A stretch of DNA of 64,000 nt from Pirellula staleyi DSM 6068 (lineage in GTDB: Bacteria; Planctomycetota; Planctomycetia; Pirellulales; Pirellulaceae): the NCBI GenBank assembly GCA_945875845.1, contig CAMCMB010000002.1, positions 123,936 to 187,935 on the forward strand. The letters run 5' to 3'. Within the stretch, counting starts at the first letter, position 1. Each line of letters begins with the position of its first letter. A model generated the notes under the pieces. That model searched no databases. It was not told where the DNA came from and worked only from the letters and a program-made list of their open reading frames with translations. Shown in pieces: positions 5,153 to 60,484 of the stretch. The position numbers were made by a program, and so were the translations under genes.

Positions 5153-5242
5153 AGTTTGTTGCGGATATGACGATGAAAAAAGCTGGTGCATTGGGCGAAT
5201 GGCGTTGTCTCCACTCCATCCGCCCTTGATTCCCAATTGGGA

Positions 5243-5294
5243 GTGCGAGGCTCCTGCCGAGCTTGAGATGCAATCGTTCGGCAGGAGCCTCACC
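5243..5294. repeat. REP-like hairpin (GCGAGGCTCCTGCCGAGC / GTTCGGCAGGAGCCTCAC)
   Basis: Inverted repeat read directly in the intergenic region. Confidence 0.8.
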
Positions 5295-5384
5295 CTCTCG
5301 AGAGAGCGATCCATTGGGCAAGTCGATGGATGTACGTTTCAAGAGGCGGTTCGAGTCCCAGCTGGTTTTGTGGAGCGTTAGCAG

Positions 5385-8521: not shown

Positions 8522-8710
8522 TTTGACAACCCGTCGCGTAAGCGAGGAGATTGACTGCAATCCCTCGCTCACCGGCTTGTTGATTTAGTGAAGTCGTTAT
8601 TGGTTACGGGAGGTATGACGGACTTCCAAGTCCGTCAATGGGGAATTCGACGGACTAGGAAGTCCGTCGTACCATTAAATCAACAAGCCGTCACGCGTCG
8701 GGTTGTCAAA
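8522..8710. repeat. Nested compound palindromic element, copy 1 (inner 118-bp module 8573-8690)
   Basis: Outer arms TTTGACAACCCGTCGCGT / ACGCGTCGGGTTGTCAAA; inner arms CGGCTTGTTGATTTA / TAAATCAACAAGCCG; core of two 20-bp palindromes GACGGACTTCCAAGTCCGTC and GACGGACTAGGAAGTCCGTC. Confidence 0.9.
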
Positions 8711-11526: not shown

Positions 11527-11591
11527 AAAGTGGCGTAAGCTTCCAGCCTGCGAGGAATCACGGATGGCAAGCTGGAAGCTTACCCCACTTT
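11527..11591. repeat. Hairpin of the GTGGG-TAAGCTTCCAGCC family
   Basis: Arms AAAGTGGCGTAAGCTTCCAGCCTGC / GCAAGCTGGAAGCTTACCCCACTTT. Related to 27522-27577 and 60425-60484. Confidence 0.82.
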
Positions 11592-17981: not shown

Positions 17982-20900
17982 GTGGTTCCAACCTCGGTTC
18001 AACTTTGGGAGAGAATTCAGGCAGCCGGGCTTGCAACAGCCGAACAATGCCGCCAATGGGTCATCGATATTTCGCGGGCTGGGGCACCCGATAAACTTCA
18101 GGATCCGACGAGCTTGGCCTCCGAATTGATTCGACTCGGAAAGATCACTCCGTTTCAGGCAAACGTCCTTTTTCATGGTTTGGCCATCCCTCTTTCGATT
18201 GGTCCTTATCGACTTGAAAGATCTCTAGAACAGGAACTCGGCAAGAATTGGTTTGAGGTTGACGAAACGAAACGCTCAAAGTCAGTTCACCGCTGGATGT
18301 ACCTGATCGTTCCAGAGTCATTCCGCGAACCCGAAAAACGCGAATGCCCACCCAGTCTGGGCTTAGCCGAAAAGCATGTCAATGTTTCACATCCTTCGTT
18401 AGACGAATGGTCTTTTGCAGGCTTGTCCGACATCAATGTCGTCGCGGTTTGTACTCCGATAGGGGGCCGACCCTTGGCGTCGTCGTTGACGCATAAACCG
18501 ATGAGCTGGAACGAAACCGCCGTCATGGTGGAGCAGATCGCAGCGGGGCTTCAAAAGTTGCATGACGCTGGACTCGTGCATGGTCGAATTAGCGCTGAAT
18601 CGGTTTGGCGCGTTGAGGATGGCGTTTTCGTTTTGAGACGCGATCCGCTCTTTCCGGTTTCAAACCCCTACGTCGGCAAAGGAGCTTCGGTCCTTGGTGA
18701 CATTGACGAGGAGTTGCTCTCGGTATCTGCTCCAGAGCTGACGCTACCGGGCACCAAGCATACCGTTCAAACTGATTTGTATGCGTTAGGATGTTTGTGG
18801 TATCGAGCCCTTACCGCAAGGAAGCTTTTCGAAGATAAAGTGGATGGTTCTTCGCAATCTTGGGCGCGCGCCCACTCACTTGAAAGGTTTGATTCGTTTT
18901 TATCGGAATCGAAGCAGAATACACTTCAGCGATGCCTTGCTCACTTGCTCGCGAAGAATCCAAAATCACGATTTGCAACGGCGAGTGATGTTATCAGAGC
19001 AATTGAGTTTGCGCTCACCGTTCCTGCGGTCGTTTTACAACCAGAACAAGACGATGCGCCGGTTGTCGCGTTTTTGGTTGGCGAACCCGCGACGGAAGTG
19101 ACTGCAAAGGCAGTTAGGAACTCGCCGAAGGATGATGCCCGGCCAGTGCCCGAACAGGCCCGGCCAGTGCCCGAACAGGCCCGGCCAGTGCCCGGTGTTG
19201 CGCAATCGTTGCCCAAGGTCGTCGAAAAGTCCGCCTCGGCCAAAAACCCTGAGGCCAAAAACCCTGAGGCCAAAAAACCTGAGGCCAGAAAACCTGAGGG
19301 CAAAAAACCTGAGGGCAGAAACGGTGGGGCCAAGACAACGAAGAAGAAGAAATCGAAGAAGTCCCGACCTGTTTGGCTGTTGCCATCCATGATTGGCGTA
19401 GCATGTCTTTTTTTAGGGGTGCTTATTTTCACGCTTACCCAAAATGGACGCTCGACAATACCAGTCAAGGGACAAACGAGTGCTGTCGTTGATAACATTG
19501 GGAATCCTGAGAAAACAGGTGATGGCTCAAAATCGCAACCGTCCAATAGTGCATCCGTCGGGAAAAATACGACAACCCAGGGAACCAAACCCATCGATCC
19601 GATCGCTGAGTATTTTTCGGTCGTTACCGACGATGGGAAAGTGCTTTGGGCGCCACCGCATGCGGGCTCCCCTTATTCATTAGAGCTATTGCCTGCGGGC
19701 CTTGAAGGGATCGTATTTGTTTCCGGAAAGGTGTGGCACATGCAGGGAGAATTAGCCAATGTGGGTAAGTGGTGGCTGGCTTCCCAGCCTGCCTTAGCGA
19801 AAGGTTTTGAGGCCTATCCTATGTTGAGTGACGAACGCATCGAGTCCGTTGCGATCGCGTTGTATCCAAGCAAGCAGTCAGGAATTCCGCAGGCACTCTT
19901 TCGACTTAATCTCAAGGCAACGACGAGCATCGATTCTATCGCCAACGCATTGCCGAACTTCTCCATGCAATTGTTTGATTCAAAAGGGGGGCGAAAGCAG
20001 GGACTGTGGAGCAATGAAGCAAATTCGGATGCGGTCGCAGTCGCCATGGAAGAGCTTCAAACAGACCGTTCCGCCATGATCAAACGGATAACAATAGGTC
20101 CACAGGAATTGGTGGCTACGCTGTCCGAGCTGAACGGAGGCGCCGCGCCGCTTCGTCGCCAGCTCGAAACGTTATTGCTGTCTACCGATAGCCGGGCGGA
20201 TATTTCTCTTTTGTTTGCTCCAAGTTTCTTGGTCGGAGATGCACGGGAATTACTTGCCGCTGTTCCGTCCGGACAAGCTCTTATGAAGGCGAGTATCGAT
20301 GAAACAATGCAAGCGGTGTTGCTCACGACAACCTTGGAGCCGCGTTGGTATACGGAGTTGCGAATGATTGGATCAGAAACGCGCGATGCGGGTAAGTTCG
20401 CTTTATCGCTCAAGCAAAAGCTCGAGAAGCTACCTGATGAGATCGAAAGTGGAATGCTCAACGCGACCGTTCATCCCTATTGGCGAGCTCTGGCGATGCG
20501 ATACCCGCAGATGCTCCGCAGCTTGAACAAGTACGGGCGATTTGGCATTGAGGACGGCCAAGTGGTTGCTAACCTTTACTTGCCGTCGGATGCAATTAGC
20601 AATCTGGCAGTCACAAGTTGGATGGCGATGAAGTTTCCGGTGGGGACAAGCAATCCTTCCGTGACGACGACGATCAAACCAGCAGTGAAACCGCAATCCA
20701 AAACGATCGATGAAATACTTGATTCCAAGATCAGTGTCGCGTTTGAGCAAGAGTCACTTGAGTCCGCGTTGCAATTGATTGCTGGCGAGGTCACCGACTC
20801 GGTGCTCTCCGGAGCGCCGATCTCAATGGCAATCAACGGGACAGCCTTTCAAAAGGGAGGAATCACTCGCAATCAGCAAATTCGCGCATTCAAGCAGACT

Positions 20901-21110
20901 GCGATTCCGTTGCGGACGATACTTACGGATCTGGTACGTCGTGCCAATCCTGTTACGACCGTTCAATCGCCCACCGAGCCGGATCAGAAGGTTGTATGGG
21001 TCGTTCTTGACGATGCGGCGAGTGCTGTCAAGAAGAAGATCGAGCTAACAACTAGGCTTTGGACAGAAGAGAATCAAGTTGCGTTGCCAAGTGAATTCAT
21101 TGCCAAGTGA
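17982..21110 (+). CDS. Kinase-fold (probable pseudokinase) protein with low-complexity linker, TM segment and large C-terminal region
   Basis: GTG start. Kinase-like helical region (LHDAGLVHGRISAESVWR...TDLYALGCLWYRALT) but HGR instead of HRD and no DFG or glycine loop; TM VWLLPSMIGVACLFLGVLIFTL. Confidence 0.75.
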   Translation: MVPTSVQLWERIQAAGLATAEQCRQWVIDISRAGAPDKLQDPTSLASELIRLGKITPFQANVLFHGLAIPLSIGPYRLERSLEQELGKNWFEVDETKRSKSVHRWMYLIVPESFREPEKRECPPSLGLAEKHVNVSHPSLDEWSFAGLSDINVVAVCTPIGGRPLASSLTHKPMSWNETAVMVEQIAAGLQKLHDAGLVHGRISAESVWRVEDGVFVLRRDPLFPVSNPYVGKGASVLGDIDEELLSVSAPELTLPGTKHTVQTDLYALGCLWYRALTARKLFEDKVDGSSQSWARAHSLERFDSFLSESKQNTLQRCLAHLLAKNPKSRFATASDVIRAIEFALTVPAVVLQPEQDDAPVVAFLVGEPATEVTAKAVRNSPKDDARPVPEQARPVPEQARPVPGVAQSLPKVVEKSASAKNPEAKNPEAKKPEARKPEGKKPEGRNGGAKTTKKKKSKKSRPVWLLPSMIGVACLFLGVLIFTLTQNGRSTIPVKGQTSAVVDNIGNPEKTGDGSKSQPSNSASVGKNTTTQGTKPIDPIAEYFSVVTDDGKVLWAPPHAGSPYSLELLPAGLEGIVFVSGKVWHMQGELANVGKWWLASQPALAKGFEAYPMLSDERIESVAIALYPSKQSGIPQALFRLNLKATTSIDSIANALPNFSMQLFDSKGGRKQGLWSNEANSDAVAVAMEELQTDRSAMIKRITIGPQELVATLSELNGGAAPLRRQLETLLLSTDSRADISLLFAPSFLVGDARELLAAVPSGQALMKASIDETMQAVLLTTTLEPRWYTELRMIGSETRDAGKFALSLKQKLEKLPDEIESGMLNATVHPYWRALAMRYPQMLRSLNKYGRFGIEDGQVVANLYLPSDAISNLAVTSWMAMKFPVGTSNPSVTTTIKPAVKPQSKTIDEILDSKISVAFEQESLESALQLIAGEVTDSVLSGAPISMAINGTAFQKGGITRNQQIRAFKQTAIPLRTILTDLVRRANPVTTVQSPTEPDQKVVWVVLDDAASAVKKKIELTTRLWTEENQVALPSEFIAK
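19137..19195. repeat. In-frame 21-bp tandem repeat encoding ARPVPEQ
   Basis: GCCCGGCCAGTGCCCGAACAG x2 plus a partial third copy. Confidence 0.92.
19239..19322. repeat. In-frame 15-bp tandem repeat encoding (A/G)K(N/K)PE
   Basis: GCCAAAAACCCTGAG and variants, about five units. Confidence 0.92.
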
Positions 21111-21191: not shown

Positions 21192-21390
21192 GTAACCCGA
21201 CGCATGACGGCTTGTTGATTTAGTGAAGTCATTATTGGTTGAGGGAGATATGACGGACTTCCAAGTCCGTCAATGGGGAATTCGACGGACTTGGAAGTCC
21301 GTCGTACCATTAAATCAACAAGCCGGTGAGCGAGGGATTGCAGTCGGCTCCTCGCTGCAGTCGGCTCCTCGCTTACGGGCACGGGTTACC
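21192..21390. repeat. Nested compound palindromic element, copy 2 (inner 118-bp module 21208-21325; outer module inverted relative to copy 1)
   Basis: Inner module nearly identical and same orientation as 8573-8690. The right flank (GTGAGCGAGGGATTGCAGTC...CTCGCTTACGGG...GGGTTACC) is the reverse complement of copy 1's left flank. Confidence 0.9.
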
Positions 21391-26949: not shown

Positions 26950-27531
26950 ATGACTCGATTACTCCCCATCGCAGTTTTGATTTCCGGTGGCGGAACAACG
27001 CTGAAAAATTTGATTCGCCGTCGCGATCTTGGAACCTTGCCGGTGGAGTTTCGGTTGGTGATCAGTTCGCGACCGGATGCAGCAGGGCTCCAATTTGCGA
27101 ACGAAGCCTCCATTCCGACATTGGTGGTTCCGAAGCTGAGAACACAAACAGCCGAAGAGCATTCGGAAAGCGTATTTCGTCCGATTCGGGAGTCGGGTGC
27201 TCGGATTGTCGTCATGGGCGGTTATTTGCAACACGTTTTGATCCCGGACGATTTTGAGAATCGTGTTGTCAATATTCATCCATCGCTCATTCCATCCTTT
27301 TGCGGAAAAGGGATGTACGGACTTAAGGTGCATCAAGCAGCGATCGATTTTGGTGTCAAGATCACGGGCTGCACGGTTCATTACGTCGACAACCAATACG
27401 ATCATGGGCCGATCTTACTACAACGCGCGTGCGAATTACGCGAGGACGACACGGCAGAAACACTTCAAAAAAGAGTCTTTGAGATCGAGTGCGAGGCATT
27501 GCCCGACGCACTCAAACGGCTAGTGGGATAG
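26950..27531 (+). CDS. purN: Phosphoribosylglycinamide formyltransferase
   Basis: VLISGGGTTLKNLI, VVMGGYLQHVL, RVVNIHPSLIPSFCGKGMYGLKVHQAAIDFGVKITGCTVHYVD, typical of the PurN family. Confidence 0.9.
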   Translation: MTRLLPIAVLISGGGTTLKNLIRRRDLGTLPVEFRLVISSRPDAAGLQFANEASIPTLVVPKLRTQTAEEHSESVFRPIRESGARIVVMGGYLQHVLIPDDFENRVVNIHPSLIPSFCGKGMYGLKVHQAAIDFGVKITGCTVHYVDNQYDHGPILLQRACELREDDTAETLQKRVFEIECEALPDALKRLVG

Positions 27532-27577
27532 GCTTCTAGCCTGTCATTTTTTGCATGACAGGCTGGAAGCCTAACTT
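27522..27577. repeat. Hairpin (AGTGGGATAGGCTTCTAGCCTGTCAT / ATGACAGGCTGGAAGCCTAACTT) between convergent ORFs
   Basis: Inverted repeat read directly; related to 60425-60484. Both flanking ORFs stop within its arms. Confidence 0.88.
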
Positions 27578-33100: not shown

Positions 33101-33173
33101 AGCCGTTGGGCGATAGCCCCGGTTTTCTAATTGCTCGACATTCGTCGAGAACCGGGGCTATCGCCCAACGGCT
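33101..33173. repeat. Long near-perfect palindrome (AGCCGTTGGGCGATAGCCCCGGTT...AACCGGGGCTATCGCCCAACGGCT)
   Basis: 24-bp arms read directly in the intergenic region. Confidence 0.92.
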
Positions 33174-60424: not shown

Positions 60425-60484
60425 AGTGGGATAGGCTTCCAGCCTGACATTTTCCTCTTCACAGGCGGGAAGCCTATACCACTC
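60425..60484. repeat. Hairpin of the AGTGGGATAGGCTTCCAGCC family
   Basis: AGTGGGATAGGCTTCCAGCCTGACAT / ACAGGCGGGAAGCCTATACCACT. Confidence 0.87.

Follow-up and report, generated by a model that had tools for sequence, protein, structure and literature searches.

Organisation of the two copies in the window

The stretch of DNA analysed here (64,000 nucleotides, hereafter the window) contains two copies of a composite repeat in which the inner module keeps its strand while the outer module is inverted, raising the question of whether the inner module flips in place or has inserted twice, in opposite relative orientations. The inner modules, at 8573-8690 and 21208-21325, are both 118 bp long, lie on the same strand and differ by five substitutions (module positions 24, 34, 35, 41 and 85), in agreement with the equal length and few substitutions given in a preliminary description made from the sequence alone. 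The swapped and reverse-complemented flanks of copy 2 that it described are likewise evident, as inverted repeats between 8553-8590 and 21308-21345 (38 nt, 97%) and between 8673-8704 and 21194-21225 (32 nt, 94%). It had missed, however, a 4-bp direct repeat bounding each copy, TCAC...TCAC in copy 1 and ATGA...GTGA in copy 2. One extra base between this repeat and the arm is included in the 118 bp of the window copies. We designate the inner module M and the parts of the outer module A and B; the two copies are organised as follows.

Copy 1
8528-8537 (+): left A arm of the outer REP-type repeat, AACCCGTCGC
8542-8568 (-): B hairpin, GCGAGGAGATTGACTGCAATCCCTCGC, reversed with respect to copy 2
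8569-8572 (+): left 4-bp target repeat, TCAC
8573-8690 (+): inner element M, 118 bp
8691-8694 (+): right 4-bp target repeat, TCAC
8695-8704 (+): right A arm, GCGTCGGGTT

Copy 2
21194-21203 (+): left arm (A) of the outer REP-type palindrome, AACCCGACGC, read directly; A-type hairpins flank a RAYT-type gene in L092/L278-L284
21204-21207 (+): left 4-bp target repeat, ATGA, with one mismatch to GTGA on the opposite side
21208-21325 (+): inner element M, 118 bp, MITE-like
21208-21222 (+): left terminal inverted repeat, CGGCTTGTTGATTTA
21252-21271 (+): first core palindrome, GACGGACTTCCAAGTCCGTC, half of the apparent REP pair; repeats of this type border the RAYT-type genes L090 and L093 on either side
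21284-21303 (-): second core palindrome, inverted with respect to the first
21311-21325 (-): right terminal inverted repeat, TAAATCAACAAGCCG
21326-21329 (+): right 4-bp target repeat, GTGA
21330-21372 (+): inner hairpin (B) of the outer REP-type repeat, GCGAGGGATTGCAGTC...CTCGC, whose loop contains a 17-bp tandem duplication; orientation opposite to that of B in copy 1
21373-21390 (+): TTAC and a diverged right A arm, GGGCACGGGTTACC

The window also contains 15-bp and 21-bp tandem repeats (19238-19327 and 19137-19199, respectively) within a predicted kinase-like ORF at 17982-21110.

The inner module belongs to a family of MITE-like elements

The host genome (G000) comprises 7.0 Mb in 149 contigs, of which we read 2.0 Mb (29%) in stretches for a census of the M family; these were partly picked because they contained matches, so that copy density cannot be extrapolated from them. 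They hold 122 near-complete copies, which sets the genome total at 120 or more, and 111 of these have exactly 116 bp between arms. Across the genome, the module matches itself with E values of about 1e-49 to 1e-56, and a 14-bp arm (at most one mismatch) occurs 219 times in forward and 218 times in reverse orientation, compared with 0 for a reversed-pattern control, both far in excess of chance.

M lacks coding capacity and ends in perfect terminal inverted repeats of 15 bp, separated by a single variable base, mostly C...G, from the 4-bp direct repeats outside. These tetramers, mainly CTAG, TTAC, TCAC, GTAA and GTGA, are identical on both sides in 70 of the 122 copies and differ by one mismatch in another 30, whereas 15 and 20 are obtained with randomly re-paired flanks; the remaining 22 copies show two or more mismatches. 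Together with the single tetramer of certain unfilled sites (see below), the direct repeats give M the structure of a MITE that duplicates 4 bp of its target, and we conclude that M is a non-autonomous, MITE-like mobile element with 15-bp terminal inverted repeats. We also considered M as a REPIN moved by a RAYT, and rejected it because of the 4-bp direct repeats, as Y1-type movement of a hairpin would be expected to leave no target duplication.

The core of M carries the palindrome GACGGACTTCCAAGTCCGTC as an inverted pair, matching repeats that flank each of the RAYT-type genes L090 and L093 on either side, and M therefore looks, from these sequence matches, like a REP pair enclosed by terminal repeats. 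The 2.0 Mb also include seven copies of a subfamily, N, all of 116 bp and with the same ends as M (C3:51937-52052, C10:65322-65437, C11:14914-15029, C6:89964-90079, C18:7348-7463, C20:36360-36475 and C23:9635-9750), whose core holds an A/B-type hairpin, that is, the repeat that M enters. Certain N copies themselves contain an M (e.g. C87:16964-17201). M also occurs in tandem arrays of the form M-B-M(-B-M), with gaps of 32-38 bp and every M in the same orientation (L060/C4:150443-150862, L014/C35:68009-68420, and in C8, C29, C32 and C87), which look like local duplications.

Outer repeats and landing sites

The outer module consists of A (AACCCGACGC...GCGTCGGGTT) and B (GCGAGG...CCTCGC), forming a nested hairpin. 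In the source genome, A/B hairpins devoid of M lie on both sides of L092, an IS200-like Y1 gene in contig C21, and in several other genomes of the genus they likewise border relatives of this gene on either side, as is expected of REPs. The L092 protein passes the Pfam Y1_Tnp model (26.2 bits, cut-off 23) and falls below the cut-off of the NCBI RAYT model NF047646 (21.5, cut-off 80), and we therefore call it RAYT-type and not RAYT; the L090 and L093 proteins, with 66.7 and 74.8 bits, also score below the latter cut-off. Given its position beside L092 and its relatives, the outer A/B module is most plausibly interpreted as the REP belonging to this gene family, although the A/B tetramers are GTAA/GTGA and TTAC/TCAC where a terminal, unpaired GTAG tag is expected of REPs.

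M likewise inserts at CTAG in D, a second family of palindromes (AATCAGCCGGAACGCG-CTAG-CGTCCGGTTTAT and variants). Unfilled D sites show the tetramer once, e.g. AATCAGCCGCAACGCA-CTAG-CGTCCGGTTTACG, whereas filled sites read CTAG-M-CTAG; by the pattern used, contigs C1-C4 contain eight of the former and nine of the latter. Unfilled A/B hairpins exist and are scarce, with two found by a strict pattern in the stretches read, either because these targets are heavily filled or because composites sometimes travel or duplicate together. In the same stretches, true A and D arms are mostly found adjoining either a B hairpin or a terminal repeat of M.

Other palindromic repeats were seen alongside. A D-related inverted pair (AGCCGTTGGGCGATAGCCCCGGTTTTC) without M occurs in the window at 33101-33173, and REP-like inverted pairs of other families, of the AGGCTTCCAGCCT and GAGGCTCCTGCCGA types, lie at 27522-27573, 60425-60476, 11527-11591 and 5241-5297. 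In addition, the RAYT-type genes at L090 1405-2040 and L093 1405-2088 are bordered on each side by inverted pairs of a palindrome that ends in GACG/CGTC; CGTC-tagged repeats have been reported as having no transposase association (PMC3733652).

Comparison between species

At the locus of copy 1, G014 and the source genome share the neighbouring cyclase (89% protein identity), and the composite is wholly absent from G014, so that this locus offers no M-only empty site. At another locus, G014 has an M inside the A palindrome and G000 has the B hairpin only. The only orthologous copy found to be shared is at C82, where G000 and G016 contain M in the same orientation. In G014, the corresponding site (L120 1340-1800) is occupied by a larger composite that lies between GAGA repeats and is bounded by terminal repeats; it has a different core, an A/B-like hairpin and one more palindrome, giving the impression of a core exchange within unchanged ends.

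Independent insertion or inversion in place

Tabulating the inner and outer orientations over the genomic copies, as the preliminary description had recommended, showed that both relative orientations are common: in the 2.0 Mb read, A/B contexts comprise 24 A-left and 39 A-right copies (p=0.08). The split by loop half is 11:19 and 8:7, and within D it is 14:11. The M sequences of the A-left and A-right copies are undifferentiated (254 of 300 permutations were as extreme), and those in D and A/B contexts are slightly more divergent from each other than by chance (0 of 300 permutations), which suggests separate waves. Moreover, 18 pairs of M copies that are identical or differ at a single position have mostly unrelated 40-bp flanks, and several of these pairs face opposite ways, one A-left and the other A-right. 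Near-identical copies in unrelated flanks and in both orientations indicate that M moves independently of the host repeat and that its landing orientation is free. Two insertions would thus yield a pair facing opposite ways about half of the time, and we are highly confident that the copies in the window are separate insertions at an equivalent position of the outer hairpin, in opposite facings, with no need for a flip in place. Of the two options originally offered for the locus, that of two opposite insertions is consequently upheld by the occurrence of both orientations, the unrelated flanks and the 4-bp duplications, while an inner flip has no positive support. Nor does the inversion still stand apart from any annotated feature, as had been stated, because the outer module appears to be a RAYT-associated, REP-type hairpin and the inner one is MITE-like.

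For inversion in place, the 118 bp would be turned around within a fixed outer repeat, either by a site-specific recombinase or through homologous exchange between the CGGCTTGTTGATTTA arms. The arms are indeed perfect inverted repeats, the 4-bp repeats would stay intact, and frequent flipping would also produce the roughly equal proportions of both relative orientations seen genome-wide. Nevertheless, the near-identical copies in unrelated flanks indicate that M moves between loci, from which random orientation follows without any flipping, and arms of 15-18 bp offer very little length for homologous recombination. At C82, the orthologous M also keeps its orientation in G000 and G016 despite about 12% divergence, albeit at a single locus and leaving room for rare flips. 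We thus regard flipping as extremely improbable. It is also very unlikely that the mobile unit is the whole composite, an outer A/B or D repeat plus M, which a RAYT would copy in the form of a REPIN-like hairpin, with the orientations reflecting a few founder composites. This would agree with the mostly close association of true A and D arms with M termini or B hairpins, with the tandem M-B-M arrays and with the single, strong hairpin into which the composite folds (z = -12.3). Similarity among M copies, however, does not follow the A-left and A-right classes, and near-identical copies occur in unrelated flanks that include different host repeats. Unfilled D and A/B repeats exist as well, among them the A/B hairpins flanking RAYT-type genes, and direct tetranucleotide duplications are not expected from transposition of the IS200/IS605 type.

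Search for a mobilising enzyme

We did not find a transposase with M ends, either in the 29% of the genome that was read or among the matches to DDE_Tnp_1 and Y1. In the 2.0 Mb, terminal-repeat pairs separated by 135-5000 bp and bounded by matching 4-bp repeats, as would be expected of an autonomous element, corresponded only to nested small repeats; likewise, small contigs, where a collapsed IS might appear, yielded only two terminal-repeat pairs, both of M length. M arms flank none of the 19 Y1 matches found; the five DDE_Tnp_1 matches in the genome are not tied to M arms, and there are no DDE_5 matches. M terminal repeats with an unfamiliar pattern of adjoining bases occur in only six places in the genome, although elements with a similar subterminal base are missed by this approach.

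Proposed mechanism

Beyond what is observed for M itself (its copy number, direct repeats, unfilled sites, both orientations and near-identical copies in unrelated flanks), we propose that a putative trans-acting enzyme inserts M either into the middle of short palindromic REP repeats or beside them, at a tetranucleotide (GTAA/TTAC, GTGA/TCAC or CTAG) that would be duplicated in the process. The outer module would be an older REP-type hairpin (A/B), tied to a different, IS200-like RAYT-type gene, and its near-palindromic structure could offer the same type of target in both arms. Transposition probably proceeds through a staggered-cut, DDE-like enzyme, and REP structure may steer the choice of target. 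Weighing against this reading are the lack of an autonomous element or transposase among the sequences searched, the 22 copies whose tetramers differ by two or more mismatches, the scarcity of unfilled A/B hairpins and the slight difference between M copies in D and A/B contexts.

More tentatively, the terminal repeats might constitute a shell of 116-118 bp with interchangeable REP cores, a REP pair of one RAYT family in M and an A/B-type REP in N, of the same length and ends, that lands on the REPs of other RAYT families; we consider this a possibility, and a rather doubtful one.

Relationship to known mobile elements

Insertion sequences that enter REPs are well established, such as IS1397, ISKpn1, ISPpu9/10 and ISRm22 (Tobes & Pareja 2006, PMC1525189). 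M shares with them the specific insertion into REP palindromes and the reconstruction of the REP when its flanks are joined; unlike them, it is a gene-free element of 118 bp, free in its orientation to the REP, and its core itself resembles a REP pair. Bacterial MITEs such as NEMIS, RUP, ERIC and Nezha (PMC3733652) are, like M, short, non-coding elements of high copy number, with terminal inverted repeats, a strong hairpin and the target duplication typical of transposon-derived elements. They can, however, usually be traced to an IS with the same ends, which we did not find for M in the 29% of the genome read, and the core of M looks like the REP pair of a separate RAYT family. REPs and REPINs with their RAYTs (Bertels & Rainey 2011, PMC3116915; Nunvar 2010, PMC2817692; Di Nocera 2013, PMC3733652) resemble A/B and the core of M in being palindromic repeats that adjoin RAYT-type Y1 genes and form tandem clusters, whereas M has, in addition, terminal inverted repeats and 4-bp direct duplications, and the A/B tetramers are like GTAA/GTGA instead of GTAG. 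Finally, TIRtrons, or TIR repeats of TIRYT transposases (PMC3733652), likewise form families of terminal inverted repeats scattered through genomes with many tyrosine transposases; M differs in that its terminal repeats flank 0 of the 19 Y1 matches. The literature that we searched, including that on MITEs in Rhodopirellula or Planctomycetes, did not yield a description of the M family. An element with a REP core and terminal repeats that targets the REPs of other families is thus a variant of MITEs, REPINs and REP-targeting ISs, and not a new kind of element.

The suspected DNA inversion is therefore replaced by a system that can be counted, with at least 120 copies of a small repeat-targeting element whose nested insertions can be put in temporal order. 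Within a single genus, it also becomes possible to test how REPINs and MITEs are related, since a link to a transposase gene can be established or excluded for each of the components (host REPs, inserted MITE and core REPs). Should M and N prove to be one shell with exchangeable cores, two unrelated transposition systems would be feeding on each other and building nested palindromes.
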